Assembly: GCA_018268655.1 (NCBI GenBank) | Contig: JAFDWC010000012.1 | Span: 1-35,634, forward strand | Length of the DNA stretch: 35,634 nucleotides | Direction of reading: 5' to 3' | DNA from: Actinomycetota bacterium | GTDB lineage: Bacteria; Actinomycetota; Thermoleophilia; Solirubrobacterales; 70-9 | Shown here: positions 998-28,914 of the stretch, piece by piece | Layout of the letters: the number at the start of each line of letters is the position of its first letter | How positions within the stretch are numbered: position 1 is the first letter of the stretch | Notes under the pieces: generated by a model | Seen by the model: the letters and a program-made list of their open reading frames with translations, nothing else | Databases searched by the model: none | Told to the model about the DNA's origin: nothing | Made by a program: the position numbers and the translations under genes

Positions 998-2521
998 ATG
1001 TATCGGGCGCTGCAGACCGACTTCGAGAGCCTGCCGCAGGTCCTCGCCGTGCGGGCGGGTGAGATCGGCGCCGAGCGCTTCGTCCGCGACGCCCACCGCG
1101 AGTGGACCTACGCAGAGTTCCAGCAGCGGGTGACCGAGGTAGCGGCCGGCCTCCGCGAGCTCGGCGTGAAGCAGGGCGACGTGGTCGGGGTGATCCTCCC
1201 CAACAGCCCCCACTACCTCGAGGTCTGGTGGGGGATCCTCTGGCTCGGGGCGGTCTTCAACCCGGTCAACCCGGCGCTGACCGCGCGCGAGGCGGCCGGG
1301 ATCCTCGCCGACTCCGAAGCGGTGGTCGCGGTCTGCACCCCGGAGGCGGCGGCCGGGCTGGCGGAGCGCCGCGGCGAGCTGCCGAACCTGCGCGAGATCG
1401 TCGCCGCCGAGGGCGATGACCCGGCGGCGCCGCTGCGCGGTCACGGCGCCGTCGCCAACCACGCGAGGATCGCCCCCGGCGACCTCGCCGCCTTCGTCTA
1501 CACCTCCGGCACCACCGGCCGCCCGAAGGGGGCGATGCTGGGCCACGGCAACTTCCTTGCCAACGCCTGGCAGCTGGGCGAGCCGCTGCCGGTCTCCCGG
1601 GGCGACACGCTGGGGATGGTGCTGCCGCTGTTCCACGTCAACGCCCAGCTCGTCACCACCGTGATCCCGCTCGTGCTCGGCGCCCAGGTGGCGATGTGGG
1701 AGCGCTTCTCGGCCTCCCGCTTCTGGGCCGACGTGGCGGCCTTCGAACCGGTCACCTTCTCCTCGGTGCCGACGATGCTGGCGGCGCTGCTGCACGCGCC
1801 CGGCGCCGACCAGGCCGAGTCGAACTCGCTGCGCTTCGTGATCTGCGGCGCGGCGCCTCTCTCGCCGGCCCTGTTCCGCCGCTTCGAGGAGAAGTTCGGG
1901 CTGAAGATCATGGAGGGCTACGGGCTCACCGAGGGCACCTGCTGCACCACGATCAACCCCTTCACCGGGCCGCGCAAGATCGGTTCGGTCGGGCTGCCGA
2001 CCCGGGCCCAGGAGGTGAAGGTGATCGACGAGAGCGGCGCGGCCGTGCCCGACGGCACCCCGGGCGAAGTCTGCTTCCGCGGGCCGAACATGATGCACGG
2101 CTACTACCGCCGTCCCGACGCCAACGCCGAGACGATGGTCGACGGCTGGATCCGCACCGGCGACGTCGGCTACCGCGACGAGGACGGCTACTTCTTCCTC
2201 GTCGACCGGACCAAGGACATGATCATCCGCGGCGGCGAGAACATCTACCCGCGCGAGATCGAGGACGTCCTGCTCGAGCACGAGGCGGTCAGGGAGGCGG
2301 CGGTGGTGGGGCGGCTGGACGAGGTCCGCGGCGAGGAGGTGCACGCGGTGGTGGCGCTGGTCGCCGGCGCCGAGGTCGCCGTGCTCGAGCAGCACTGCCG
2401 GGCGCGGCTGGCGGCCTTCAAGGTGCCGACGAGCTGGGAGGTGGTCGAGGAGCTGCCGAAGACCTCGACCGGGAAGATCGACAAGAAGCCGCTGCGCGAG
2501 AAGCTCGCCGCGGCCGGTTGA
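998..2521 (+). CDS. Class I adenylate-forming acyl-CoA ligase
   Basis: This 507-residue protein belongs to the ANL superfamily (AMP-binding enzymes). It activates a carboxylic acid with ATP to an acyl-adenylate and transfers it to CoA. The phosphate-binding signature Y-T-S-G-T-T-G-R-P-K-G starts at residue 168. The adenine-pocket motif G-Y-G-L-T-E-G-T follows mid-protein. The hinge region reads G-W-I-R-T-G-D-V-G-Y and L-V-D-R-T-K-D-M-I-I-R-G-G-E-N. The C-terminal catalytic Lys is Lys493 in S-T-G-K-I-D-K-K. All core motifs are intact and the length is normal. The ATG at 998 was chosen because the aligned N-terminus starts there and the predicted -10 box ends at 988. The substrate is unknown. 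Its place beside a thiolase, an SDR and, further on, a ketone carboxylase suggests a short or branched acid or beta-keto acid. An SDR gene follows after 12 nt. Confidence 0.9.
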   Translation: MYRALQTDFESLPQVLAVRAGEIGAERFVRDAHREWTYAEFQQRVTEVAAGLRELGVKQGDVVGVILPNSPHYLEVWWGILWLGAVFNPVNPALTAREAAGILADSEAVVAVCTPEAAAGLAERRGELPNLREIVAAEGDDPAAPLRGHGAVANHARIAPGDLAAFVYTSGTTGRPKGAMLGHGNFLANAWQLGEPLPVSRGDTLGMVLPLFHVNAQLVTTVIPLVLGAQVAMWERFSASRFWADVAAFEPVTFSSVPTMLAALLHAPGADQAESNSLRFVICGAAPLSPALFRRFEEKFGLKIMEGYGLTEGTCCTTINPFTGPRKIGSVGLPTRAQEVKVIDESGAAVPDGTPGEVCFRGPNMMHGYYRRPDANAETMVDGWIRTGDVGYRDEDGYFFLVDRTKDMIIRGGENIYPREIEDVLLEHEAVREAAVVGRLDEVRGEEVHAVVALVAGAEVAVLEQHCRARLAAFKVPTSWEVVEELPKTSTGKIDKKPLREKLAAAG

Positions 2522-2533
2522 GAGGAGAGTGCG

Positions 2534-3298
2534 ATGGGGATTCTCGAGGGCAAGGCGGTGATGATCACCGGGGCCGCCAGCGGAATCGGCAGGGCGACCG
2601 CCGAGGAGGCGGCGGCCGAGGGGGCGCGGCTGCTGCTCTGCGACGTCGACGACGAGGGCGGCGCCGCGGTTGCCGCGGCGATCGGCGGCGCGGCGAGCTA
2701 CCGCAGCTGCGACGTCACCGACGAGGCCGCGGTCGAGGCGGCGGTGGCGGCGACGATCTCCGAGCTGGGGCGGATCGACGGCGCCTTCAACTGCGCCGGG
2801 ATCCTCGGCGTCCTCGGCAACATCGGCGAACTGCCGCTCGACGGCTGGAAGCGGCTGATCGAGGTCGACCTCAACGGCGTCTTCCTCTGCACCAAGCACC
2901 AGGTCAACGCGATGGCCGAGCAGGGCTCGGGCTCGATCCTCAACATGGCCTCGGCCGCCGGCCTGATCGGCTGGCCCGGCGCCTCCGGCTACGTCGCCGC
3001 CAAGCACGGCGTGGTCGGGCTCTCGAAGGCGGCGGCCCTGGAGTACGCGCCGCAGGGGGTCCGGGTCAACTCGATCTGCCCCAGCTACACGATCACCCCG
3101 ATGGTCGAGAAGGACCTCTTCGAGGACGCCCTCGGCAACGACGAGGAGCTGATCGGGGCGGCCCGGGCCAACCACCCGATCGGGCGCTTCGCCGACCCGC
3201 AGGAGATCGCCAGCGCCGCCGCCTGGCTGCTCTCCGACAAGGCCTCGTTCGTGACCGGGACGGCCATGGCGGTCGACGGCGGCTACACCGCGCCCTAG
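2534..3298 (+). CDS. SDR-family NAD(P)-dependent oxidoreductase
   Basis: This is a 254-residue classical short-chain dehydrogenase/reductase. It has the nucleotide-binding motif T-G-A-A-S-G-I-G near the N-terminus, N-C-A-G-I at the end of beta-4, a catalytic Ser region (N-M-A-S-A-A-G) and the pair Tyr153/Lys157 in Y-V-A-A-K. An Asp at the end of strand beta-2 (C-D-V-D-D) favours NAD(H). Such enzymes typically oxidise secondary alcohols or 3-hydroxyacyl compounds. A ribosome site (GAGGAGAG) precedes the ATG, and the gene lies 12 nt after the ligase, so the two are very likely cotranscribed. A strong hairpin follows the stop codon. The substrate cannot be read from the sequence. Confidence 0.9.
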   Translation: MGILEGKAVMITGAASGIGRATAEEAAAEGARLLLCDVDDEGGAAVAAAIGGAASYRSCDVTDEAAVEAAVAATISELGRIDGAFNCAGILGVLGNIGELPLDGWKRLIEVDLNGVFLCTKHQVNAMAEQGSGSILNMASAAGLIGWPGASGYVAAKHGVVGLSKAAALEYAPQGVRVNSICPSYTITPMVEKDLFEDALGNDEELIGAARANHPIGRFADPQEIASAAAWLLSDKASFVTGTAMAVDGGYTAP

Positions 3299-3428: not shown

Positions 3429-4118
3429 ATGGCCGACCGCGACTCCTTCGAGCAGACGCCCTACCAGCTGCCGGCGGGCGCGACCGAGCTGATCCTGGTC
3501 CGCCACGGCGCCTCCTCGCCGCCGCTCGAGGGCGTCCCCAACCCGCTGATCGGCGGCCACTCCGACCCCGCCCTGGCGGCGGCGGGCCTCGCCCAGGCGG
3601 AGCTGGTGGCGGAGGGGCTGCGGCACGAGCCGATCGACGGGATCTTCGTCTCGACCCTGCGCCGGACCGGCGAAACGGCGGCGCCACTGGCGGCGGCGAC
3701 CGGGCTCGATCCGGTCGCCCTGGAGCAGCTGCGCGAGGTCTTCCTCGGCGACTTCGAGGGCGGCGAGTACCGGATCCGGGCCGCCCGCGGCGACCCGGTG
3801 ATCCGCCGCGTCTTCGCCGAGGAACGCTGGAGCGCGATCCCCAACGGCGAGGATTGGGAGAGCTTCTCGACCCGGGTCACCGCCGGGGTCGAGGAGATCG
3901 TCGCCACGGTCGGGCCCGACGCGGTCGCGGTCGCCGTCCTCCACGGAGCGGTGATCGGCCAGCTCTGCCGGCAGGCGACCGCCAGCCGCCCGTTCGCCTT
4001 CGTCCACGCCGACAACGGCTCGATCTCTCGGCTGGTCGTCGACGCCGACGGCAAGTGGCTGCTGCGCAGCTTCAACGACATCTCGCACCTGCGGGTGCGG
4101 ACCGGATCGGCCGGCTGA
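3429..4118 (+). CDS. Histidine phosphatase family protein (phosphoglycerate-mutase-like)
   Basis: The 229-residue product has the R-H-G signature with catalytic His26 (L-V-R-H-G-A). It also has the second catalytic His172 in V-L-H-G-A-V-I-G, and the usual intermediate motif S-T-L-R-R-T-G-E-T-A. Enzymes of branch 1 remove or transfer phosphate through a phosphohistidine; many actinobacterial members are broad phosphatases. It is a single domain of ordinary length without a signal peptide. A TAGCCT hexamer (3410-3415) in front of the ATG could be a -10 box giving a very short leader. A phosphatase beside kinase-like and phosphotransferase-like genes is suggestive, but no specific substrate can be named. 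An alpha/beta hydrolase gene follows after 24 nt with its own AAAGGAG ribosome site. Confidence 0.88.
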   Translation: MADRDSFEQTPYQLPAGATELILVRHGASSPPLEGVPNPLIGGHSDPALAAAGLAQAELVAEGLRHEPIDGIFVSTLRRTGETAAPLAAATGLDPVALEQLREVFLGDFEGGEYRIRAARGDPVIRRVFAEERWSAIPNGEDWESFSTRVTAGVEEIVATVGPDAVAVAVLHGAVIGQLCRQATASRPFAFVHADNGSISRLVVDADGKWLLRSFNDISHLRVRTGSAG

Positions 4119-4142: not shown

Positions 4143-4871
4143 ATGCCAGCGTTCCTCGTTCACGGCAACCCCGACTCCTCGCGGCTGTGGTCGCGGGTGG
4201 TCGAGCACCTCGGCCCCTACGGCGAGGAGGTGGTCGCCGCCGACCTGCCCGGCTTCGCCGCGGCGGCGCCGGCGGGCTTCCCCCGCAGCAAGGAGTCCTA
4301 CGTCGAGTGGATCGAGGAGCAGCTGGAGGCGCTCGGAGGCGGCGTCGACCTGGTCGGCCACGACTGGGGCTCGCTGCTGGCCCAGCGGGTCGCCTCGACC
4401 CGGCCCAACCTGGTGCGGACGGTCGCCTGCGGCGGCGCCGCGGTCGACCGCGAGTACCCATGGCACCCGCTGGCCCAGGTCTGGCAGACGCCCGGCGAGG
4501 GCGAGCGCTACATGGAGGAGGAGCTGACCGACGAGTTCGGGATCGCCCACCTGGTCGAGAACGGGGTGCCGCAGGAGGACGCCGAGGCCAACATCTGGAC
4601 CACCCCGCACGGCAAGGCGACGATCCTCGCCCTGTATCGCTCGGCGGTGGACATCGGCGAGGAATGGCAGCCCGACCTGGAGCGGATCGAGGTGCCGGCG
4701 ATGGTGATCTGGGGCAAGGACGACCCCTACGTCCCGCTCGCCTTCGGCGAGGCGCTGGCGACGCGGATGAAGGGTGAGCTGGTGGTCCTCGATTGCGGCC
4801 ACTGGTGGCCCTTCGAGCGCCCCGAGGAGACCGCCGAAGCCCTTCTCCGCCACTGGTCCGAGGCCGCCTGA
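4143..4871 (+). CDS. Alpha/beta hydrolase with Asp nucleophile (haloalkane dehalogenase / epoxide hydrolase type)
   Basis: The 242-residue protein has the oxyanion motif H-G-N-P near residue 7 and the nucleophile elbow G-H-D-W-G-S with Asp74. The catalytic acid is probably in W-G-K-D-D-P, and the catalytic His is His220 in D-C-G-H-W-W. Asp instead of Ser in the elbow places it with haloalkane dehalogenases, epoxide hydrolases and fluoroacetate dehalogenases, not esterases. The domain starts almost at residue 1, so the ATG at 4143 with ribosome site AAAGGAG is well supported. It is the last gene before the perfect inverted repeat at 4896-4916. The substrate is unknown; a halogenated or epoxidised precursor of the ketone pathway is possible. 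Confidence 0.85.
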   Translation: MPAFLVHGNPDSSRLWSRVVEHLGPYGEEVVAADLPGFAAAAPAGFPRSKESYVEWIEEQLEALGGGVDLVGHDWGSLLAQRVASTRPNLVRTVACGGAAVDREYPWHPLAQVWQTPGEGERYMEEELTDEFGIAHLVENGVPQEDAEANIWTTPHGKATILALYRSAVDIGEEWQPDLERIEVPAMVIWGKDDPYVPLAFGEALATRMKGELVVLDCGHWWPFERPEETAEALLRHWSEAA

Positions 4872-4973: not shown

Positions 4974-5597
4974 ATGTCGAGCGCTACCGACACCGAGCTC
5001 CTCGCGCTGCACGGACTCGCGGTGAAGAAGGCCGGGAGCCCAGCCGCGGTCGCGGCCGTGATCGGCGCCGAGGAGGCCGAGGTGGAGGCAGCGCTCGAGG
5101 CCGCCGTCGCCGCCGGCCGCGCCGCCGGCGCCAAAGGCACCTTCATGGTCGCCCCGGTTGGCCGCGAGTGGCTCGACGCGCAGTACCCGCAGGCCTTCGC
5201 CGGGTTCCGCGCCGACCCCGCCGCGACCGAGGCCTACGAGCGCTTCGAGCGGATCAACCGGGCCCTGCTGGCGCTCTTCACCGACTGGCAGATGGTCCCG
5301 ACCGCCGGCGGCGAACGGGTTCCCAACGACCACGGCGACAGCGAGTACGACGCCGACATCGTCGATCGCCTCGGCGCCCAGCACGAAAAGGCGGAAAAGG
5401 TGCTCGACTCCTTCGCCGCGCTCGAACCGCGCCTCGGCCTCTACAAGCAGCGCCTCGACTCCGCCTACGACAGGGCCCTGGCGGGCGAGCACGAGTGGGT
5501 CTCGGGCGCCCGCATCGACAGCTACCACACGGTCTGGTTCGAGCTCCACGAGGACCTGCTGCGCATGCTTGGCCGCGAGCGCGAGGAGGCGCCGTAA
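4974..5597 (+). CDS. Small protein resembling the C-terminal extension of actinobacterial pyruvate phosphate dikinases
   Basis: The product has 207 residues. Residues ~8-65 look like a winged-helix unit (L-L-A-L-H-G-L-A-V-K-K followed by Ala-rich helices and A-P-V-G-R-E-W-L). The rest is helical, with Y-E-R-F-E-R-I-N-R-A-L-L, D-W-Q-M-V-P and a late E-W-V-S-G-A-R-I-D-S-Y-H-T-V-W-F-E-L-H-E-D-L-L. From memory, a similar HTH-plus-helical segment occurs as a C-terminal extension of some actinobacterial PPDK proteins. Here it is a free-standing subunit placed directly in front of a PPDK-like gene, so a partner or regulatory role in that enzyme is the best inference. The start ATG lies 6 nt after the predicted transcript start. 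The end of the gene carries one copy of a 20-bp direct repeat. Confidence 0.6.
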   Translation: MSSATDTELLALHGLAVKKAGSPAAVAAVIGAEEAEVEAALEAAVAAGRAAGAKGTFMVAPVGREWLDAQYPQAFAGFRADPAATEAYERFERINRALLALFTDWQMVPTAGGERVPNDHGDSEYDADIVDRLGAQHEKAEKVLDSFAALEPRLGLYKQRLDSAYDRALAGEHEWVSGARIDSYHTVWFELHEDLLRMLGREREEAP

Positions 5598-5634
5598 TCG
5601 TGTGCGTGTCCGGGCGCGAGCGCGAGGAGGCGCC
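5574..5634 (+). repeat. 20-bp direct repeat spanning a stop codon and the next ribosome site
   Basis: An identical 20-nt unit occurs at 5574-5593 and 5615-5634 (41-nt period). Each copy contains GCGAGGAGGCGCC. The first copy encodes the last residues (R-E-R-E-E-A-P) of the small PPDK-associated protein. The second supplies the GAGGAGG ribosome site 4 nt before the TTG start of the dikinase gene. A short tandem duplication is the simplest origin. Confidence 0.8.
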
Positions 5635-7233
5635 TTGACCGCGGTCGCCGACCGCGCCGTCGTTCTCGACGGGGCGACGGTGCCGAGCAGGGAGGTGGTC
5701 GGCAACAAGGGGCGCAGCATCGCCTGGATGCTCAGCCTCGGCCTGCCGGTGCCGCCGGCGCTGTGCCTGCCGATCGAGGAGTGCCGCCGCTTCCACGCCG
5801 GCGGCGGCGAGCTCGACGATGAGGTCTGGAGCTCGGTCCTGGCCGGCGTCGCCGGGCTCGAGCAGAAGCTCGACCGCGAGTTCGGCGGCGGCGAGCGGCC
5901 GCTGCTGGTCTCGGTCCGCTCCGGCGCCGCGGTCTCGATGCCGGGGATGATGGACACCGTCCTCAACCTCGGCATCACCGACACGGTCGAGGCGGCGCTG
6001 GCTCGGCTCTCGGGCGACGCCGACTTCGCCCGCCAGACCCACTGCCGCTTCGTCCACCAGTTCGGCGCGACCGTGCTCGGCGCCGACCTCGACGAGCCCG
6101 CCGCCGACGCGACCCCGGCCGCGGTCCGCGAGGCGGTCCGCCGCGACAGTGGCGAGGAGGTTCCGACCGACCCCCAGGAGCAGCTGCGGGCGGTGATCAA
6201 GACCGTCTTCGGCTCCTGGTCCTCGCGCCGCGCCAAGGCCTACCGCCGCCACTGGGGCATCCCCGAGGACGGCGGCACCGCGGTGATAATCCAGGCGATG
6301 GTCTTCGGCAACCTCGGCCGGGACTCCGGCACCGGCGTCCTCTTCAGCCGCAACCCGCTCAGCGGCGAGCCCGAGCCCTACGGCGAGTGGCTGCCGGGCG
6401 GCCAGGGCGAGGACGTCGTCAGCGGCACCCACGACCCGCTGCCGCTGGCCGCCCTCGAGGCCTCGCTGCCGGCGGCCCACGAGCGCCTGATCGCGGCCGC
6501 GACGCTGCTCGAGCGCGAGCACGGCGACGTCCAGGACGTCGAGTTCACGGTCGAGCACGGCCAGCTCTACCTGCTCCAGACCCGGGCCGCCAAGCGCTCG
6601 CCGCTGGCCGCCGTGCGGGCCGCCGTCGACCTCGCCGCCGAGGGCGCGATCGACCGCGCCGAGGCGCTCGACCGGGTCACCCCCGAGCAGCTCGCGAGCG
6701 TGCTGGCGCCGCGCCTGGAGGCCGAGGTCGCCGCCGCGGCCGAGGTCCTCGCCCGCGGCACCGCCGCCTGCCCGGGGGTTGCGAGCGGGGTCGCGGTCGG
6801 CGACTCCGAAGCCGCCTGCGAGGCCGGCGGGGACGTCGTCCTCGCCCGCCCGACGACCAGCCCCGAGGACGTCAGCGGGATGATCGCCGCCCGGGCGGTG
6901 GTGACCGAGCGCGGCGGCTCGACCTCGCACGCAGCCGTCGTCACCCGCGCCCTCGGCCGCCCCAGCGTCGTCGGCGTCGGGGAGGGGGAGAGCGCGGCGC
7001 TGCTCGGCCAGGAGCTGACCGTCGACGGCTCCGAGGGCGTGGTCTACCGCGGCGCCCTGCCGACCGCGGCGGTCGACCCGGCCAGCGTGCCGGGGCTGTC
7101 GCGGCTGCTCGAGTGGGCTCGCGAGCTGAGCCCGGTCGAGGTCGCCGCGGCGACGTCCCCGGTCGACCTACTTCGTCTCGCGCAGGGCAAGTCGATTCCA
7201 CAGGGTTCCGAGCAGGAGGAGGAGATTTCGTGA
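5635..7233 (+). CDS. PPDK-like protein: ATP-binding and phosphohistidine domains without the PEP/pyruvate barrel
   Basis: The protein has 532 residues. The N-terminal part is a pyruvate-phosphate-dikinase ATP-grasp domain: N-K-G near residue 23 and the signature V-S-V-R-S-G-A-A-V-S-M-P-G-M-M-D-T, followed by F-S-R-N-P-L-S-G-E and Q-D-V-E-F-T-V. The swivel domain follows with catalytic His432 in G-G-S-T-S-H-A-A-V-V. The chain stops about 100 residues later, so the C-terminal TIM barrel of full PPDK (~870-900 residues) is missing. It can probably form a phosphohistidine from ATP but needs another protein as acceptor. The TTG at 5635 was chosen because GAGGAGG precedes it and the domain begins at once. 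A GTG at 5602 is an alternative. It overlaps the next gene by 4 nt (GTGA), so expression is coupled. Phenylphosphate synthase and rifampin phosphotransferase are known relatives with altered acceptors. Confidence 0.82.
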   Translation: MTAVADRAVVLDGATVPSREVVGNKGRSIAWMLSLGLPVPPALCLPIEECRRFHAGGGELDDEVWSSVLAGVAGLEQKLDREFGGGERPLLVSVRSGAAVSMPGMMDTVLNLGITDTVEAALARLSGDADFARQTHCRFVHQFGATVLGADLDEPAADATPAAVREAVRRDSGEEVPTDPQEQLRAVIKTVFGSWSSRRAKAYRRHWGIPEDGGTAVIIQAMVFGNLGRDSGTGVLFSRNPLSGEPEPYGEWLPGGQGEDVVSGTHDPLPLAALEASLPAAHERLIAAATLLEREHGDVQDVEFTVEHGQLYLLQTRAAKRSPLAAVRAAVDLAAEGAIDRAEALDRVTPEQLASVLAPRLEAEVAAAAEVLARGTAACPGVASGVAVGDSEAACEAGGDVVLARPTTSPEDVSGMIAARAVVTERGGSTSHAAVVTRALGRPSVVGVGEGESAALLGQELTVDGSEGVVYRGALPTAAVDPASVPGLSRLLEWARELSPVEVAAATSPVDLLRLAQGKSIPQGSEQEEEIS

Positions 7234-7949
7234 CCGTCAAGCAGGAGGGCAAGAGGCCCTATCCCGACAAGTGGTCGCGCGAGTCGGCGACGCCGCTGGT
7301 CGAGCGCTACCACAGCGCCGTTCGCGCGCTCGCCGCCGATAAGTTCGCCGCCAGCGGCATGTCCTGGGAGCAGGCGGTGGCCGCCGGCGTCCTGATGCCG
7401 ACCAGGGCAGAGCTCGAGCAGATCGAGGCCGACGTCCTCGCCGAGGGCTACCGGTTCGACGTCTCGGCGACGATCTCGCTGAAGGAGGAGCCGGACAAAT
7501 ACAAACCGCTGGCCGGGATCGCCGATTCCGGCGCCCAGGAGAGCGACGAGCAGGGGCGCCTGATCGTCGGCAGCGGCGACAACGTCTTCAAGGCTGCCGC
7601 CGACGTCACCGGGATCGCCCGCTACATCTCCGACGTCGACCGGGTGATGGAGATGCTGACCGGTGGCGTCCCGGAGAACACGGTGGCGATCATCGACGAC
7701 TCCGGCGGCACCCTGACCGCGCCGATCCTCGGCGACTTCACCGCCGTCGTCTGCATGGGCGGCACGGTGCGCTCGCACCTCGGGATCCTGACCCGCGAGT
7801 ACAACGTGCCGTGCCTGATGAACGCCGAGCTCGACGGGCTCGCCGACGGCGACGAGATCACGGTCGAGTACTCCAAACCCGCCGCCGACGCCTATGCCGA
7901 CGCCGGAGCGGCGGCCGAGCACCGCGCGCGCATCATCAAGGTCGCCTAG
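7230..7949 (+). CDS. Stand-alone PEP-utilising mobile (phosphohistidine) domain protein
   Basis: This 239-residue protein contains a second swivel domain: G-D-F-T-A-V-V-C-M-G-G-T-V-R-S-H-L-G-I-L at residues ~169-188, with the presumed phosphorylatable His183, then R-E-Y-N-V-P-C-L-M-N-A-E. The first ~130 residues have no motif I recognise; they include E-E-P-D-K-Y-K-P-L-A-G. It differs from the canonical S-H-A-A swivel of the preceding protein (S-H-L-G here), so it is not a simple duplicate. It starts with GTG overlapping the stop of the dikinase gene, and a strong AGGAGGGGG ribosome site follows for the next gene. As inference, it may relay the phosphoryl group from the dikinase to the substrate subunit, as in phenylphosphate synthase, where the ATP-binding and His parts are on separate chains. 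Confidence 0.72.
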   Translation: MTVKQEGKRPYPDKWSRESATPLVERYHSAVRALAADKFAASGMSWEQAVAAGVLMPTRAELEQIEADVLAEGYRFDVSATISLKEEPDKYKPLAGIADSGAQESDEQGRLIVGSGDNVFKAAADVTGIARYISDVDRVMEMLTGGVPENTVAIIDDSGGTLTAPILGDFTAVVCMGGTVRSHLGILTREYNVPCLMNAELDGLADGDEITVEYSKPAADAYADAGAAAEHRARIIKVA

Positions 7950-7963
7950 GAGGGGGTCCCGAA

Positions 7964-9433
7964 ATGCCGATCAACCACAGCTACGTCGACCTGCTGGAGA
8001 ACAACAACTTCATCCAGAAGTGGGCCGACTCGTTCTTCTTCCAGTGCACGACCCGGACCGTGCAGGAGTCGAAACTGTTCCCGGTCAACCCGTACATCGC
8101 GATGTCGTACTACAACGCCTGGTACCGGTACCCCGAAATCCTCCGCAAGGTCGACGCGGCGCTGCCGGCCGAGGAGATCGGCGACCGCGCCCGCCAGGTG
8201 GGGACCTACTGCAACACGATCTCGATGGGGGTCGGCCCGCAGTTCTACCTCGGCGGCCGCCAGTGGCTGCTCGACATGGGCCTGCTGAAGCCGACCGACT
8301 GCGTCGAAGACATGCTCGACGTGCTCGACTTCTGCCGTCGCCTCAACATGTCCTACCACCGCTCGGAGAACCACATCATGCCGAGCGACGGCAACCACAA
8401 AGACCAGATCCACACCGCCCGCCAGACCGAGTTCTTCGAAGACGGGGCGATCGGGGTGACCCCGGGCGACAAGCTCCACACCGCCTTCACGCACTTCATG
8501 GCCGCCGTCTCCGCCTACGGCTTCCTCAGCCACTGCGAGTGCCGGCTCAGCTTCTGCAACCACGGTCCCTACCGGACCCGCGACGGCAACCAGATGCTGG
8601 TCCGCGACGCGGTCGACCTCGCCGAGTGCGACTTCCCCTGGATGGACGGGGCGGCGCGGGAGATCGAGCACAACAACCTGACGATCCCGGTGGTGATGAA
8701 GGACACCGACTTCTACATGGTCGACGACTGGGGCAGCTTCGAGGCGAAGCCGTCATACGACAACCAGAACCTGGTCGCGATCGGGCTCTACACCTCCGAC
8801 TGGCTCTCCGACGGCTACGTCCCCGTCCACATGGACAGCGCTTCCGAGCTCGCCGACTACCTCGACGACCAGCGCGAGAAGATGGAAAGGGCGACCGCCG
8901 AGATGTGGCAGATGATGGCCGGCTGGACCCGTGAGCAGATGGTCGACGCGGGGCTGCTGGTGTACTTCGCGATCCTCAAGGACGTCGCCCACTTCGCCGG
9001 CGAGTACGACCAGGACGACTGGTTCCTGGTCGACGATCGCACCCAGCTGTTCCGGCCGCTGATGAACGACGAGTACGGCAACTCGGCGATCGCCGAGCTG
9101 GTCGGGCTGGTCTCGCTGACCTCGCAGGACCGCGGCCCGCACCGGATGGAGCGCTACTCGCGCGACCGCACCGAGATGTGGACCTCGATCCCCTACTCGG
9201 TCCTCGCCGACGACGACTGGACCGCCGGGGTCGGGCCGATCGGGCCGGGCAGCAGCTCGCTGCCGCCGAAAACGGCGAAGTGGACGACCACCCTCGGCAA
9301 GCTCAGCCAGGACGAGTGCAACGCGGCCGCCAAGCAGTTCCACTCGGCCAAGTACGACCTCCGCCATTACGACGACGACGTCTGGGCCAAGAACAACCCC
9401 GACGCCGAGCAGACGACGGCGCTGGCGAGCTAG
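7964..9433 (+). CDS. Unrecognised 489-residue protein of the dikinase operon
   Basis: I do not recognise this family. It has 489 residues, no signal peptide and no membrane segment. It is unusually rich in aromatic, Asp, His and Met residues and has few of the Ala/Arg runs seen in its neighbours, which suggests a tightly constrained enzyme or binding subunit. Notable stretches: F-F-F-Q-C-T-T-R-T near residue 25, Y-H-R-S-E-N-H-I-M-P-S-D-G-N-H near 130, and H-C-E-C-R-L-S-F-C-N-H-G-P-Y near 185 (three Cys and two His close together, possibly a metal site). Later come W-D/W-F-L-V-D-D-R-T-Q-L-F-R-P-L and T-S-Q-D-R-G-P-H-R-M-E-R-Y. The gene sits 14 nt after the swivel-domain gene behind AGGAGGGGG and 9 nt before a reductase. 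By position it is the best candidate for the substrate-binding subunit that replaces the missing PPDK barrel. Confidence 0.8.
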   Translation: MPINHSYVDLLENNNFIQKWADSFFFQCTTRTVQESKLFPVNPYIAMSYYNAWYRYPEILRKVDAALPAEEIGDRARQVGTYCNTISMGVGPQFYLGGRQWLLDMGLLKPTDCVEDMLDVLDFCRRLNMSYHRSENHIMPSDGNHKDQIHTARQTEFFEDGAIGVTPGDKLHTAFTHFMAAVSAYGFLSHCECRLSFCNHGPYRTRDGNQMLVRDAVDLAECDFPWMDGAAREIEHNNLTIPVVMKDTDFYMVDDWGSFEAKPSYDNQNLVAIGLYTSDWLSDGYVPVHMDSASELADYLDDQREKMERATAEMWQMMAGWTREQMVDAGLLVYFAILKDVAHFAGEYDQDDWFLVDDRTQLFRPLMNDEYGNSAIAELVGLVSLTSQDRGPHRMERYSRDRTEMWTSIPYSVLADDDWTAGVGPIGPGSSSLPPKTAKWTTTLGKLSQDECNAAAKQFHSAKYDLRHYDDDVWAKNNPDAEQTTALAS

Positions 9434-9442
9434 GGGGCCGAG

Positions 9443-10483
9443 ATGAGCGAGCGGGTCAATCGCGCCTACCGCCTGCGCCGGCGCCCCACCGGCGAGCTCG
9501 CCGACGGCGACCTCGAGCTGGTCGAGGAGGAGGTCCCGGAGCTCGGGGACGGCCAGGCCCTGGTCCGGACCAGGCTGCTCTCGCTCGACCCGACCAACCG
9601 GATCTGGATGAGCGACATCCGCGGCTACATGCCGCCGGTGCCGCTTGGCGCGGTGATGCGCGGGATCGGGATCGGCGAGGTGGTCGAGTCCAGGCGCGAG
9701 GACATGCCGGTCGGGGCGACGGTCAGCGGCTTCCTCGACTGGCAGGAGCTCTGCCTCGCCGACGACTCGCGGCTGCTGGCGCCGCTGACGGTCCTCCCGG
9801 ACCCGCTGCCGGGGCCGGAGTCGGCCTTCCTCGGCGCCCTCGGGCACACCGGGGTCACCGCCTACATCGGAATCGACCTGGCCGAGCTGGGGGAGGGCGA
9901 GACGATCGTCGTCTCCGCCGCCTGCGGCGCGGTGGGCTCGATCGCCGGCCAGATCGCCCGTCAGCGCGGTGCCGGTCGCGTCGTCGGCGTCGCCGGCGGC
10001 CCCGAGAAGTGCCGGCACGCGGTCGAGGCGCTCGGCTACGACGCCTGCGTCGATCACCGCGCCGACGATTGGCGCGAGCAGCTTGACGCCGCCACCCCGG
10101 ACGGCATCGACGTCGACTTCGAGAACGTCGGCGGGCCGATCATGGACCACGTCCTCGGCCGCCTCAACATCGGCGCCCGCGTCTCCCTCTGCGGGATGAT
10201 CGCCGAGTACAACAGCTACAACGAGGGTGGCGAGCACGCTGGCGGCCTGACCAACGTCGGCCAGCTGATCATGCAGCGCTCGACGATCAGGGGCTTCCTC
10301 GTGCTCGACTTCGGCGACCGCTTCGAAGAGGCGATCGGCTACCTCGGCGGCCTGCTCGGCGAAGGCAAGCTCCACTACGACGAGACGATCGTCGACGGTG
10401 GCATCGAGGCCGCCCCCGGCGCCCTCGCCGAGCTCTTCGACGGCGGCAACCTCGGCAAGCTGCTGGTCCGGGTCGCGGACTGA
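9443..10483 (+). CDS. Zinc-independent MDR-family reductase (CurA / prostaglandin-reductase type)
   Basis: The 346-residue protein has the layout of NADPH-dependent 2-alkenal/enone reductases of the medium-chain family. The N-terminus carries R-L-R-R-R-P-T-G. There is the S-L-D-P-T-N-R-I-W-M segment, a Y-I-G-I-D-L linker, and a Rossmann motif A-A-C-G-A-V-G-S-I-A-G. The later D-F-E-N-V-G-G segment is typical of the group. No catalytic or structural zinc cysteines are present. Such enzymes reduce the C=C bond of alpha,beta-unsaturated ketones or aldehydes. The gene begins 9 nt after the unknown 489-residue protein and ends 4 nt before an enoyl-CoA hydratase, so it is in the same operon. It points to an enone or cyclic ketone among the operon's substrates. 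Confidence 0.87.
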   Translation: MSERVNRAYRLRRRPTGELADGDLELVEEEVPELGDGQALVRTRLLSLDPTNRIWMSDIRGYMPPVPLGAVMRGIGIGEVVESRREDMPVGATVSGFLDWQELCLADDSRLLAPLTVLPDPLPGPESAFLGALGHTGVTAYIGIDLAELGEGETIVVSAACGAVGSIAGQIARQRGAGRVVGVAGGPEKCRHAVEALGYDACVDHRADDWREQLDAATPDGIDVDFENVGGPIMDHVLGRLNIGARVSLCGMIAEYNSYNEGGEHAGGLTNVGQLIMQRSTIRGFLVLDFGDRFEEAIGYLGGLLGEGKLHYDETIVDGGIEAAPGALAELFDGGNLGKLLVRVAD

Positions 10484-10487
10484 GCCG

Positions 10488-11315
10488 ATGAGCCTCTGGG
10501 CGGTCGAGCGGCGCGGCGACGGCATCGTCGTCGCCGCCTACACCAACCCGCCGATGAACTACTTCGTCGCCGCCGGAGTCGAAGAGCTGGCGGCGCTGAT
10601 CCCGAGCTGGCGCGATCCGGCGGTCCGCGCGGTGATCATCACCGGCGGCCCCGCCGACCAGTACCTCACCCACTACAGCGTCGAGGAGCTGGCGGCGCTG
10701 GCGGCCGACCGCGAGACCATGCGGGCGCTCGGCACCGACGTCAACGACGGCTACCACGCGCTGGTCCAGGACCTCAGCGACCTCGAGGTGCCGGTGATCG
10801 CGGCGATGAGCGGCGACACGATGGGCGGCGGCCTCGAGCTCTCGCTCGGCTGCGACATCCGGATCGCCAAGCGAGGCGACTTCTCGATCGGCTTCCCCGA
10901 GGTCTCGCTCGGGATCATCCCCGGCGGCGGCGGGACGCAACGGCTGCCGCGGATCATCGGCGCCGGGCCGGCGCTCGACTTCGTCCTTCGCAGCCGCATC
11001 GTCTCGCCGCAGCAGGCGCTCGCGCTCGGCATCGTCAGCGAGCTCGCCGACGACCCCAGGGCGCGGGCGCTCGAGGTCGCGGCGAGCCTGGTGCGCCAGT
11101 CGCCGACCGCGCTGGCGGCGGCCAAGCGCGCGGTCCTGCGCGGCTCCTCGCTGCCGCTCGCCGAGGGCCTCCGGGTCGAGGCCGACGCCTTCCTGGCGAC
11201 GATGCTGAGCGACGAGGCCGTCGCCGCGATGAGCGAGTACGCCGGCACCCCGGACGCCGACCGCCGCGCCTGGGCGCGCTCCCGGGCGACCGCCGTGCCC
11301 GGCGACCCGAGCTGA
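10488..11315 (+). CDS. Enoyl-CoA hydratase/isomerase family protein
   Basis: This 275-residue crotonase-fold protein has the oxyanion-hole segment M-S-G-D-T-M-G-G-G-L-E-L and the second catalytic region F-P-E-V-S-L-G-I-I-P-G-G-G-G-T-Q-R-L. Both acidic residues used by hydratases are present (Glu117 and Glu138). Members add water to trans-2-enoyl-CoA or carry out related isomerase or lyase reactions. The ATG at 10488 lies 4 nt after the reductase stop; an in-frame extension upstream overlaps the reductase and is not needed. It is the last gene of the dikinase operon. It shows that the route runs through CoA thioesters even though the operon itself lacks a ligase. Confidence 0.88.
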   Translation: MSLWAVERRGDGIVVAAYTNPPMNYFVAAGVEELAALIPSWRDPAVRAVIITGGPADQYLTHYSVEELAALAADRETMRALGTDVNDGYHALVQDLSDLEVPVIAAMSGDTMGGGLELSLGCDIRIAKRGDFSIGFPEVSLGIIPGGGGTQRLPRIIGAGPALDFVLRSRIVSPQQALALGIVSELADDPRARALEVAASLVRQSPTALAAAKRAVLRGSSLPLAEGLRVEADAFLATMLSDEAVAAMSEYAGTPDADRRAWARSRATAVPGDPS

Positions 11316-12104: not shown

Positions 12105-13355
12105 TCAGCGCGGGAGCAGGCGGGCCAGCCGTAGCGCCACCCGCAGCTCGAGCTGGCGCTCGCCGAGCGGGTGGCCGAGGAGGGATTCGGCGCGGCGCAC
12201 CCGGTAGGCGACGGTGTTGGCGTGGACGCCGAGGCGGCGGGCGGCGCGGACGAAGCTGGCGCTCTCGTCGAGGAAGATCGCGAGGGTCGAGGCGAGGCGG
12301 ACGGTGGCGTCGTCGGGCGCCGCGAGGGGGCCGAGCTCGCGGGCGGCGAAACGGCGGGCCGCCTCGGGGTCCTCGACCAGGAGCGCCTCCAGCGCGAGGT
12401 CGGGGTAGGCGGCGCGGGCGCCGGCGGCATCCCCGCGCAGCTGCGCGACCCGGCGCGCGACCAGCGCCTCGCGGTGGCTGAGGACGAAGCCCTCGACCCC
12501 GTGCGCCGGGGTCCCCGCCGCCACCGAGAGGCCGCGGCCGGCGCCGGCCGGCAGCCGCAGGCGCGCCAGCTCGGGCCGCTCGCGCCGTCCCGCCCAGCAG
12601 GCGAGGTGGCGGCCCTCGGCGACGGTCAGCGGCGGCCCGGCGCCGAGCGACTCGGCGATCGCCTCCGCCGCCCGCTCCATCGCCGCGAAGAGGGCACCGG
12701 CGTCGCCGGGTCGCTCGCCCGCGCCCTCGCTCCAGACCACGTAGCCGACGTGGAAGCGGTCGAGCTCGTAGCCGAGCCGGAGGCTGACCGCGGCCGAGTC
12801 GGCGGCGGTCCCGGCGAGGAGCGCCCGCACCTCGGCGGCGCGCAGGGCGGCGGCGCCGCGGACCCACTGCTCGCGCTCGGAGAGGTAGACGTCGGTGAGC
12901 CGGCGCTCGATCGCCTCGATCCAGGCGAAGATCCAGGCGTTGAAGAAGGCCATCGCCTCGGCCAGGTGGTCGGGGTCGTCGGTGGCTTCGCGCAGGCGGG
13001 CGAGGATCATCCCGGCGAAGACCCCCTGGGCGGTGCGGTAGGCGCGCTGCAGGAGGACCAGGTCGAGGCCGCGGACGACGTACTCCTTGGCGTAGCCGAT
13101 CGCCTCCGGCGGCGGCTGGGCGCTGCTCGGGTCGGCGCCGGCCCGCATCAGGGTGACGATCAGCCCGAGGTTGGCGCGGGTGCTCTGCAGGGTCCAGGTC
13201 CGCATGTCGTCGTCGAGCTCGTCGAGGTGATCGTGGATCGTGTCGGCGAGGGTCGCGGCGACCTGGTCGAGCTCGGCGCTGAGGGTGTCGACGATGGCTT
13301 CGACCTCGCCGCGACTGGCGGCGGGCGGGGCGGAGATCGCCGGGCCTCGGGCCAT
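12105..13355 (-). CDS. PucR-family transcriptional regulator
   Basis: The 416-residue protein has a long N-terminal helical region (with W-T-L-Q-S-T-R-A-N-L-G-L and M-A-F-F-N-A-W-I-F-A-W-I-E-A-I-E-R), a middle GGDEF-like/CdaR-type region, and the typical C-terminal PucR helix-turn-helix: F-L-D-E-S-A-S-F-V-R-A-A-R-R-L-G-V-H-A-N-T-V-A-Y-R (split here at residue ~20) followed by R-R-A-E-S-L-L-G. PucR proteins are usually activators of nearby catabolic genes. It is divergent from acxA, with a perfect inverted repeat between them. A TACGTT -10-like hexamer (13368-13363 on the minus strand) places the transcript start at 13356, next to the ATG, so its mRNA is probably leaderless. The inverted repeat then covers -18 to -36 of its own promoter, which would give self-repression. 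Related sites upstream of other units suggest a wider regulon. Confidence 0.88.
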   Translation of the reverse strand: MARGPAISAPPAASRGEVEAIVDTLSAELDQVAATLADTIHDHLDELDDDMRTWTLQSTRANLGLIVTLMRAGADPSSAQPPPEAIGYAKEYVVRGLDLVLLQRAYRTAQGVFAGMILARLREATDDPDHLAEAMAFFNAWIFAWIEAIERRLTDVYLSEREQWVRGAAALRAAEVRALLAGTAADSAAVSLRLGYELDRFHVGYVVWSEGAGERPGDAGALFAAMERAAEAIAESLGAGPPLTVAEGRHLACWAGRRERPELARLRLPAGAGRGLSVAAGTPAHGVEGFVLSHREALVARRVAQLRGDAAGARAAYPDLALEALLVEDPEAARRFAARELGPLAAPDDATVRLASTLAIFLDESASFVRAARRLGVHANTVAYRVRRAESLLGHPLGERQLELRVALRLARLLPR

Positions 13356-13457: not shown

Positions 13458-15617
13458 ATGGCGACGGGAGCTGGGAGCGAGGAGCACGACCCGCGGGTGC
13501 TGGCGATCGACGCCGGCGGCACGATGACCGACACCTTCATCGTCGACGGCGCCGGCGCCTTCGTCGTAGGCAAGGCGCAGACGACTCCGCAGGACGAGTC
13601 GGTCGGGCTGATGCATTCGGCCGAGGACGCGATGCGGCAGTGGGACTCGACCACGGAGGCGGCGTTCCCGCAGATCCAGTCGGCGGTCTTCAGCGGCACC
13701 GCGATGCTGAACCGGCTGCTGACCCGTCGCGGCCGCCGCGTCGGCGCCCTCGTCACCGCCGGCCAGGAGGACGCGCTGCAGATGGAGCGGGGGATCCAGA
13801 CCTACCTCGGCTTCTCCTACGCCGACCGCCTCCACATCGCCACCCACCACCACAACGAGCCGCTGATCCCGCGCTCGCGGATGCACGGCGTCCGCGGTCG
13901 GATCGACCTCTTCGGCAACGAGGTGCTGCCGCTGCGCGAGGAGGACGCCCGCGCGGCCGCCGCGGCGCTGCTCGACGACGGGGTCGAGGGGATCGTCGTC
14001 TCGCTGATCTTCAGCTACCGCAACCCCGCCCACGAGCAGCGGGTCCGCGAGATCCTCGAGGAGGAGAAGGCGAGGCGCGGCCACAACGGCGACTGCCCGA
14101 TCTTCGTCTCCTCCGAGCTCTACCCCTCGCGGCGCGACTTCCCGCGCCTCAACACGACGGTGATCGAGGCCTACGCGGCCGAGCCCTCCCGCGGCACCCT
14201 GCGCGCCGTCCGCGACCGCACCAAGGAGCGCGGCGCCGGCTTCGAGCTGCGGGTGATGGCCTCCCATGGCGGCACGATCTCGATCGACGCCGAGCAGCTG
14301 GCGACGACACTGGTCAGTGGCCCGATCGGCGGTGTCGTCGGCGCCCGTTGGCTCGCCGACCGGATCGACCTCGACAACGTCCTCTGCACCGACATCGGCG
14401 GCACCTCCTTCGACATCGCCCTGCTGACCGGCAAGCGCTACGAGGTGACGACGACCCCGGACATGGCGAAATTCCTGCTCAACATGCCGCTGGTGCAGAT
14501 CGACTCGGTCGGCGCCGGCTGCGGCTCCTTCGTCCGCATCGACCCCAACGCGCGCCGGCCCGAGGTCGGCCCCGACTCGGCCGGGGCGATGATCGGCACC
14601 GCCTGGCCCGAGGGCGGGGTCGAGACCGCCTCGATCACCGACCTCAACCTCGTCCTCGGCCGGCTCAACCCCGACTACTTCCTCGGCGGCCAGGTCCAGC
14701 TCGACGTCGAGCGCGCCCGCCACGAGGTCAGGCGCCAGGTCGCCGACCCGCTCGGGCTCGGGGTCGAGCAGGCGGCGGCCGGGGTGATCGAGCTGTTCGA
14801 GACCTCGCTCCGCAACGAGGCGGTCGGCCGCATCCTCGGCAAGGGCTACAGCCCGGCCGACTACACCCTGCTCTGCTACGGCGGCGGCGGGCCGCTGCAC
14901 GTCGGCGGCTACACCCGCGGCGTCCCCTACCAGCAGGTGCTGGTGCCGGAGTGGGCGGCCGGGTTCTCGGCCTTCGGCTGCGCCTGCGCCGAGTTCGAGT
15001 ACCGCTTCGACCGCCAGGTCGACCTGCCGCTGCTGCCGACCGCAGCGGAGGCCGAAAAGGTGGCGATGGGCGGGATCCTGACCCAGGCCTGGCGCTCGCT
15101 CGAGGAGCGTGTCCGCGCCGAGTTCGCGAAGTCGGGATACGCCGCCGGGGAGGTCTCCTTCACCCACATGGTGCGGATGCAGTACTACGGCCAGCTGGTC
15201 GACATCGAGGTCGACGCGCCGCGGCCGGCGATCGAGTCGATCGCCGACGTCGAGGAGCTGGTCGAGACCTTCGAGCGGACCTACACGCGGATGTACGCGC
15301 GGGCGGCCTCCTCGCCGGAGCTCGGGTACCTGGTCGCGCAGGCGATCGTCAAGGGCTCGGTCCCGATCGAGAAGCCGACGCTGCCGGTGATGCCGCGCGA
15401 GTCGGGGTCGCCGCCGGTGAAGGAGACGCGCCAGGTCTGGTGGTCCGACGGCTACGCGACCACCGACGTCTACGAGATGGACGACGTCCGCAACGGCCAC
15501 GCGATCGAGGGCCCGGCGGTGCTCGAGGCCGAGTCGACCACCTTCCCGATCCCGCCCGACCGCCGCGCCTGGCTCGACGAGCACGGGATCTTCCACCTCG
15601 AGAACAAGGAGGCCTGA
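13458..15617 (+). CDS. acxA: Acetone carboxylase beta-subunit-type protein (AcxA; HyuA/hydantoinase A superfamily)
   Basis: The 719-residue protein matches AcxA (about 717 residues) in length. Its N-terminal nucleotide motif is I-D-A-G-G-T-M-T-D-T-F (residues 17-27); T-M-T-D-T-F is what I expect for ketone carboxylases, as opposed to hydantoinases. The second phosphate motif is D-I-G-G-T-S-F-D beginning at Asp312. In acetone carboxylase this subunit binds ATP, which is cleaved to AMP and two phosphates to activate the ketone (enol phosphate) and bicarbonate. Other motifs include S-G-P-I-G-G and G-G-G-G-P-L-H. The ATG at 13458 has no ribosome site but fits a leaderless transcript. The AcxB-type gene follows after 5 nt. 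Acetophenone carboxylase or N-methylhydantoinase subunits are alternatives, but the attached gamma domain downstream favours the acetone type. Confidence 0.82.
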   Translation: MATGAGSEEHDPRVLAIDAGGTMTDTFIVDGAGAFVVGKAQTTPQDESVGLMHSAEDAMRQWDSTTEAAFPQIQSAVFSGTAMLNRLLTRRGRRVGALVTAGQEDALQMERGIQTYLGFSYADRLHIATHHHNEPLIPRSRMHGVRGRIDLFGNEVLPLREEDARAAAAALLDDGVEGIVVSLIFSYRNPAHEQRVREILEEEKARRGHNGDCPIFVSSELYPSRRDFPRLNTTVIEAYAAEPSRGTLRAVRDRTKERGAGFELRVMASHGGTISIDAEQLATTLVSGPIGGVVGARWLADRIDLDNVLCTDIGGTSFDIALLTGKRYEVTTTPDMAKFLLNMPLVQIDSVGAGCGSFVRIDPNARRPEVGPDSAGAMIGTAWPEGGVETASITDLNLVLGRLNPDYFLGGQVQLDVERARHEVRRQVADPLGLGVEQAAAGVIELFETSLRNEAVGRILGKGYSPADYTLLCYGGGGPLHVGGYTRGVPYQQVLVPEWAAGFSAFGCACAEFEYRFDRQVDLPLLPTAAEAEKVAMGGILTQAWRSLEERVRAEFAKSGYAAGEVSFTHMVRMQYYGQLVDIEVDAPRPAIESIADVEELVETFERTYTRMYARAASSPELGYLVAQAIVKGSVPIEKPTLPVMPRESGSPPVKETRQVWWSDGYATTDVYEMDDVRNGHAIEGPAVLEAESTTFPIPPDRRAWLDEHGIFHLENKEA

Positions 15618-15622
15618 CGGCG

Positions 15623-26656: not shown

Positions 26657-27319
26657 CTAGCTGGTCTCCCGAGACGCCCCGATCGGGTTTCCGAAGCGCT
26701 CCAGGAAAACGGTCTCCTCCACGGGGCGCCTGGTGAGACGGCGCGGGAAGCCGTCGGCGGGGTAGCCGGCGGCGAGATGGCAGGCGGTCAGGTAGCCGTC
26801 GGGGATCGCCAGCAGCTCGCGCACCTCGGGCTCGGCGGCGACCGAGAGGGTGGTGATCGTCGTCGCCACCCCCTGCACGCGCAGGGCGATGCAGAGGTTC
26901 TGGACGTAGGGGTAGATCGAGGCCCCGCCGACCACCGAGGGACGGTCGAGCTCGAGGTCGGTGAGGTGGAGGTCCTCCTGGTGGGCGCAGACGACGATCA
27001 GCAGCGGGTGCTCCGCGAGGTTGCGGGCGAACTCGTCGGCGGCGAGGACCGCCTGCCGTGCCGAGGAGTACTCGCCGAGTGCCTGCGTCCCCGCCATCGC
27101 CGCCTCGAAGTAGGCTCGCCAGGGCACCAGGTAGAGGTCTCGCAGCCGCTCTTTCGCCGCCCGCTCGCGGACGGCGATGAGCCGCACCGGTTGGCGGTTG
27201 CCGCCCTGCGGCGCGAACCGCGCCGCCTCCGCCGCTCGGTAGAGGACCGCGTCGGGGACGTCGTCGGGCTGGTAGCGGCGGCAGGCGCCGATCGTCCGCA
27301 TCGCCTCGAGCGCGTCCAC
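26657..27319 (-). CDS. Nitroreductase-family protein
   Basis: The 220-residue protein begins A-M-R-T-I-G-A-C-R-R-Y and continues A-A-R-F-A-P-Q-G-G-N-R-Q-P-V-R, the FMN-binding pattern of nitroreductases. A second conserved region G-G-A-S-I-Y-P-Y-V-Q-N-L-C-I-A-L-R lies near residue 125. These are FMN-dependent NAD(P)H oxidoreductases acting on nitro groups, quinones or activated double bonds. The GTG at 27319 was chosen because it lies 5 nt after the stop of the upstream minus-strand gene, implying cotranscription. The normal fold starts there. The physiological substrate is unknown. Confidence 0.85.
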   Translation of the reverse strand: MDALEAMRTIGACRRYQPDDVPDAVLYRAAEAARFAPQGGNRQPVRLIAVRERAAKERLRDLYLVPWRAYFEAAMAGTQALGEYSSARQAVLAADEFARNLAEHPLLIVVCAHQEDLHLTDLELDRPSVVGGASIYPYVQNLCIALRVQGVATTITTLSVAAEPEVRELLAIPDGYLTACHLAAGYPADGFPRRLTRRPVEETVFLERFGNPIGASRETS

Positions 27320-27324
27320 CGTCC

Positions 27325-28830: not shown

Positions 28831-28873
28831 CCTGCGGCGAAGGTAGCAACGGCCGCCCACCGGCTGGCTCAGG

Positions 28874-28914
28874 CCGGGCGCCCGCGGCTGGAGGATCGCC
28901 AAAGCGGCGCCCGG
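28874..28914 (-). terminator. Possible hairpin after the MFS gene
   Basis: CCGGGCGCC (28874-28882) pairs with GGCGCCCGG (28906-28914), leaving a 23-nt loop. It starts just past the MFS stop on the minus strand and before the carboxyltransferase-like gene. The long loop and lack of a T-run make this weak. Confidence 0.35.

Follow-up and report, generated by a model that had tools for sequence, protein, structure and literature searches.

A putative four-subunit, barrel-less dikinase that couples a VadK-type phosphoryl donor to a candidate acceptor family

Four tightly packed genes in the window (the whole stretch of 35,634 nucleotides that was analysed) appear to encode a small-molecule dikinase that lacks the PEP/pyruvate barrel and is divided over four subunits, with P0003 and P0002 as phosphoryl donor, P0004 as relay and P0001 as holder of the substrate; judging from the sequences, we put the probability of this reading at roughly two in three. 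In what we consider the best reading of the sequence evidence, the VadK-type protein and its partner would be an interchangeable phosphoryl donor, and the swivel protein together with P0001 would make up an acceptor half of a new kind, acting on a catabolic substrate. What is directly seen is the domain content, the conserved carrier histidines, the co-occurrence of the genes, their fusions, and the exchange of P0004 plus P0001 for HpeH-like acceptors at the same donor.

The operon and its donor half

The four genes are:
4974-5597 (+): P0002, 207 aa, small dikinase partner, Rv1126c-like by operon position, predicted helical
5635-7233 (+): P0003, 532 aa, barrel-less pyruvate phosphate dikinase (PPDK) of VadK type, with ATP-grasp and swivel and carrier His432
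7230-7949 (+): P0004, 239 aa, stand-alone phosphohistidine swivel with His183 and an N-terminal extension
7964-9433 (+): P0001, 489 aa, proposed acceptor-substrate subunit, new family

The tight packing described in the earlier note is real: the intergenic spacings are 37, -4 and 14 bp, P0003 and P0004 overlapping by 4 bp, and P0002, P0003, P0004 and P0001 all have coding composition. P0003 starts with TTG, downstream of a GAGG-rich site. A 19-base direct repeat, GCGAGCGCGAGGAGGCGCC, seen by eye, has copies at 5575-5593 and 5616-5634, i.e. from the 3' end of P0002 to the ribosome-binding region of P0003.

P0003 contains the PPDK_N and PEP-utilizers domains (Pfam), and PPDK sequences in the PDB match it at E 7e-104, in alignments that stop at residue 514 of 532; Pfam and NCBIfam detect no PEP/pyruvate barrel in P0003, nor in P0001, P0002 or P0004, in agreement with the split, barrel-less dikinase that the earlier note had described. 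The same note had correctly numbered the carrier histidines, His432 in P0003 and His183 in P0004. His432 sits in GGSTSHAAVV, and this GGxxSHA carrier motif recurs in 25 of the 26 P0003-type open frames compared; in the 26th, at L066, the automatic pattern took another stretch first.

P0003 scores 672 bits against NCBIfam NF004531, whose curated cut-off of 456 can also be passed by full-length PPDKs; taken together with the paper on VadK, this is presumably the model for the Rv1127c (VadK) type. The probable VadK identity of P0003 is based on that model, on the VadK paper and on the occurrence of the same two genes together on plasmids of named mycobacteria. For P0002 there is no Pfam match; in many genomes its relatives adjoin VadK-like genes. 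In M. tuberculosis, VadK (Rv1127c) is a PPDK that lacks the barrel and autophosphorylates on His422, the equivalent of His432 in P0003, and its solubility is improved by its operonic partner Rv1126c; a 2026 paper describes it as a regulatory histidine kinase that binds methylcitrate-cycle enzymes (PMC13400623). By their sequences, P0003 and P0002 share the architecture and pairing of VadK and Rv1126c, and the donor half is already known, being of VadK/Rv1127c type.

The swivel protein and P0001

P0004 matches PF00391 at E 3e-5 (Pfam), and in profile comparison its swivel aligns with that of HpeH and rifampin phosphotransferase (RPH) at a probability of 98; the His183 carrier motif is retained in nearly all of its relatives. 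A natural fusion at L012, for which a structure model reached a pLDDT of 92, gives the structural counterpart: in the model its swivel part superposes on the swivels of RPH, PPDK, Enzyme I and pyruvate kinase with Z of 11-15, and of about 14 for RPH. The P0001 part of the same model has no PDB match, and RPH chains aligned on the swivel only.

P0001 had been called unrecognised and placed in the acceptor position by the earlier note, and both statements stand after the profile and structure searches that it had proposed. Neither P0001 alone nor a 40-sequence family built around it has a Pfam, NCBIfam or PDB sequence relative, apart from a stray FA_desaturase_2 match (E 0.0056) in one member of the family; with these searches empty for the single protein and for the family, the reading of P0001 as a known enzyme was set aside. 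The AlphaFold2 model of P0001 (pLDDT 86, pTM 0.88) gave a best Foldseek E of 0.41 against PDB folds and no VIA-align chain at Z >= 2, a result that is not proof of a new fold. A diverged rifampin-binding domain was also considered and gained no support: when family profiles were compared, P0001 matched the acceptor domains of HpeH-like proteins and RPH at a probability of 0.1, against 98 for the swivel control, and there was no fold match, although such kinship could escape a structure search. Conservation in P0001 is highest at R99, R194, G201-P202-Y203, W226 and P263. Neither its sequence nor its fold links P0001 to a known acceptor domain, so its putative binding of a substrate is argued only from position and fusion.

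Relatives of P0001 in the genus are about 80% identical, and more distant ones came from alignment searches in the order and phylum; a scan of genome contigs with P0001 alone gave a single relative, the others being found by whole-genome alignment searches. P0001 is often present in several copies per genome, with tandem pairs at L058, L059, L061, L062 and L069, and plasmid records add Rhodococcus, Methylibium, Novosphingobium and Paraburkholderia to the family. A literature search on Rhodococcus oxybenzonivorans and Methylibium found nothing covering the P0001-type cluster genes, and the paper on isobutylene ibc is silent on them.

We compared the neighbourhoods of 53 P0001 relatives from Actinomycetota and from Alpha- and Betaproteobacteria, a sample in which many contigs are too short for neighbours to be judged. 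Of the 53, 47 have a swivel gene no more than 2.5 kb from P0001; it stands immediately upstream on the same strand in 35 and shares an open frame with P0001 in 9. Within 8 kb there is a P0002 relative in 32 and a VadK (P0003) relative in 20, figures that are to be read with the many short contigs in mind. At L012, L057, L063, L065 and L066 the swivel, P0001 and P0002 form one protein that is followed by VadK. The gene order on a plasmid of Paraburkholderia sp. PGU19 is P0004-P0001-P0002-P0003, and a Novosphingobium plasmid holds all four genes, partly separated. The four genes do, then, co-occur elsewhere, natural swivel-P0001-P0002 fusions included, and their co-occurrence across several phyla argues that the module is more than chance. 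Counting against the dikinase reading, the barrel-less dikinase is absent near some P0001 loci (e.g. L050-L053), and two genomes, G374 and G463, have no close P0003 relative at E 1e-30.

Two further observations concern genes beside these loci. On the Methylibium petroleiphilum PM1 plasmid (L106, 9983-12872), relatives of P0001, the swivel and P0002 lie just upstream of B12-dependent mutase genes (a B12-binding protein, an AMP ligase, MeaB and the mutase), with no VadK nearby. Unannotated proteins of 360-380 aa stand beside VadK or P0001 at L112 (10029-11117), L103 (11130-12275), L057 (12337-13422) and L012 (6164-7246); those scanned have no Pfam match or only a weak one to DUF7065.

Gene neighbourhoods and exchange of acceptors

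The genes flanking the operon in the window are:
998-2521 (+): AMP-binding acyl-CoA ligase, upstream member of the conserved cluster
2534-3298 (+): SDR, upstream member of the conserved cluster
3429-4118 (+): histidine-phosphatase-superfamily gene (PF00300, E 4e-37), candidate for a dephosphorylation step
4143-4871 (+): alpha/beta hydrolase, kept beside the module
9443-10483 (+): MDR-type NADPH enone reductase, curcumin-reductase-like at 320 bits, under the 440 cut-off
10488-11315 (+): enoyl-CoA hydratase/isomerase (PF00378, E 1e-34)
13458-15617 (+): AcxA-like acetone-carboxylase-type gene
15623-18421 (+): AcxB-AcxC fusion, 932 aa, AcxB-like Hydantoinase_B plus acetone carboxylase gamma (PF08882)

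The enone reductase, the enoyl-CoA hydratase and, further on, the ketone carboxylase (Hydantoinase_A/B and Acetone_carb_G evidence for 13458-18421) are found as the earlier note had described them. The upstream phosphatase, which that note had not used, fits a transient phosphorylation, and it is kept beside the module at L010, L017, L055 and L056; the enone reductase is conserved at L010, L017 and L056, and the acetone-carboxylase-type genes at L010. A PucR-type regulator at 12105-13355 (-) separates the dikinase operon from the acetone-carboxylase genes and is a candidate regulator of both. At L010, L017 and L056 an AMP ligase and a PYC_OADA-type carboxyltransferase lie between P0001 and the enone reductase; they are absent from the corresponding place in the window (9433-9443), which has a 42% paralogue of that carboxyltransferase at 26657-28902, beside a nitroreductase-family gene.

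The cluster on Rhodococcus plasmids runs swivel, P0001, AMP ligase, P0002, VadK, biotin protein, biotin carboxylase, carboxyltransferase, OB-fold protein, thiolase and Tyr-phosphatase, which parallels HpeHI-HpeCBA-HpeD-HpeE (PMC9618137). HpeHI phosphorylates hydroxyacetophenones, and the steps that follow fall to a biotin carboxylase, a phosphatase and a CoA ligase (PMC9618137, PMC12167813). The Novosphingobium cluster likewise contains a biotin carboxylase, a carboxyltransferase, a ligase and a thiolase. Because phosphatase, CoA ligase, enone reductase and carboxylase-type genes are found in the clusters, we favour the transient phosphorylation of a catabolic hydroxy- or enolisable compound, which by analogy would be followed by carboxylation or CoA activation. 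An attempt to read the substrate from the neighbours was abandoned, as no one substrate is compatible with all clusters.

In other settings (L093, L094, L108, L109 and L110, with plasmids of M. avium, Rhodococcus and M. branderi among the carriers) the VadK-P0002 pair adjoins an HpeH-like protein, a rifampin-binding-type acceptor plus swivel, that replaces P0004 and P0001. The window donor falls in a 15-row clade of the VadK tree (support 100/100) that also contains donors linked to HpeH and VadKs presumed to be mycobacterial; within it, a subclade of 6 rows, likewise well supported, holds both P0001-linked and HpeH-linked donors. On two Rhodococcus plasmids (L103 and L105), three swivel-P0001 modules surround one VadK. 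The HpeH-linked pairs, the mixed subclade and the three modules per single VadK together point to a shared donor with exchangeable acceptors. A broader version, to which we give somewhat less than even odds, is that VadK and its Rv1126c-like partner are a general donor unit, much as Enzyme I is in the PTS, for two unrelated and interchangeable kinds of acceptor, namely HpeH-like proteins and a swivel-P0001 half with a fold absent from the PDB. On this broader view, the orphan VadK of pathogenic mycobacteria would be a donor from the system that has lost its acceptor, has had it replaced, or has one still to be discovered.

The M. avium (L108) and M. branderi (L110) plasmids, with VadK and partner beside an HpeH-like acceptor, may bear on the orphan chromosomal VadK. 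On another plasmid, from Rhodococcus (L109, 8836-11007), an AMP-binding protein carries a P0002-like domain as a C-terminal fusion.

Proposed reaction, alternatives and known systems

In the proposed reaction P0003, with P0002 as its partner, would bind ATP and phosphorylate its own carrier histidine; the phosphoryl group would reach His183 of P0004, either by a relay from His432 or by docking of P0004 directly on the ATP-grasp domain, and P0004 would then pass it to the substrate held by P0001. The product would be a phosphorylated catabolic intermediate, on which a carboxylase, a CoA ligase and a phosphatase would then act in the manner of the Hpe pathway. We infer the phosphotransfer, the relay, the binding of substrate by P0001 and the class of substrate. 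The presence of two swivels, in P0003 and in P0004, makes the phosphoryl route uncertain and counts against the four-subunit reading, as does the published regulatory role of VadK in M. tuberculosis.

That role suggests an alternative, which we think unlikely, in which the genes form a regulatory phosphorelay: VadK~P would phosphorylate P0004, and P0001 would be a sensor or target-binding protein that adjusts metabolism. Such a relay would accord with the autophosphorylation of VadK and its binding of methylcitrate-cycle enzymes in M. tuberculosis (PMC13400623), with the acceptor substrate of P0001 still being without a name, and with four presumed mycobacterial genomes (L088-L091) that hold VadK and P0002 and in which a search for P0001 gave no match at E 10. 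However, other VadK-P0002 pairs adjoin HpeH-like acceptors of small molecules, the modules lie within catabolic clusters with phosphatase, carboxylase and ligase, and several P0001 paralogues per genome suit substrates better than sensors.

That P0001 is a separate catabolic enzyme, such as a lyase, isomerase or hydrolase acting on the phosphorylated product, and shares no more than a transcript with a dikinase whose acceptor site is in another place, seems quite unlikely to us. Its lack of a match to any known acceptor domain would agree with this, as would its position at L107, about 8 kb from the other three genes; but the nine swivel-P0001 fusion frames point to direct cooperation, a swivel accompanies the acceptor domain in PPDK, RPH and HpeH (PMC12167813), and among candidates for the acceptor P0001 is the most constant. 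Least credible by far is a degenerate or reassigned PPDK or PEP synthase whose barrel gave way to P0001, with the binding of pyruvate or PEP preserved. P0003 does retain the PPDK-type ATP-grasp and swivel, but the barrel and PEP-site domain occur in none of the four proteins and the many P0001 paralogues are in catabolic settings.

Returning to the four-subunit dikinase, the central idea of the earlier note, a new ATP-dependent phosphotransferase, is supported insofar as the dikinase is split, P0001 is in the place of the acceptor and the genes co-occur; its donor half, of VadK type, is not new, and its acceptor may be a ketone, an enol, an alcohol or a phenol. If the reading is correct, it defines a large, unnamed acceptor family in Actinomycetota and Proteobacteria, and hence a set of catabolic phosphorylations, and it hints that unrelated types of acceptor domain have been taken up by dikinases. 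For the VadK family, which matters in tuberculosis, there would be a testable biochemical setting as donor to a small-molecule acceptor.

Among known systems, PPDK is homologous to P0003 over about 510 residues of ATP-grasp and swivel, and differs by the PEP/pyruvate barrel that P0001-P0004 lack. VadK (Rv1127c) and Rv1126c provide the pairing of a barrel-less PPDK with an adjoining small partner gene, but VadK is reported to regulate the methylcitrate cycle and to have no acceptor subunit (PMC13400623), whereas the P0003 operon holds P0004 and P0001. RPH shares the dikinase logic and a superposable swivel, but is a single chain with a rifampin-binding domain to which P0001 failed to align. Nearest among the functioning relatives are HpeHI, CreHI and PpsAB, all two-component dikinases, of which HpeHI, the hydroxyphenylethanone dikinase, is a proven one (PMC12167813). 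HpeI is PEP-synthase/RPH-like and has no swivel, whereas P0003 is PPDK-like with its own swivel and the P0002 partner; in HpeH the rifampin-binding-type acceptor precedes the swivel, whereas here the swivel precedes P0001, which has no detectable similarity to the HpeH acceptor. What these systems have in common with the present operon is that an ATP subunit and a swivel-plus-substrate subunit are encoded separately, as are P0003 and P0004/P0001, with the ATP-grasp subunit and its swivel-bearing partner encoded together, as in dikinases of the HpeHI/PpsAB kind.
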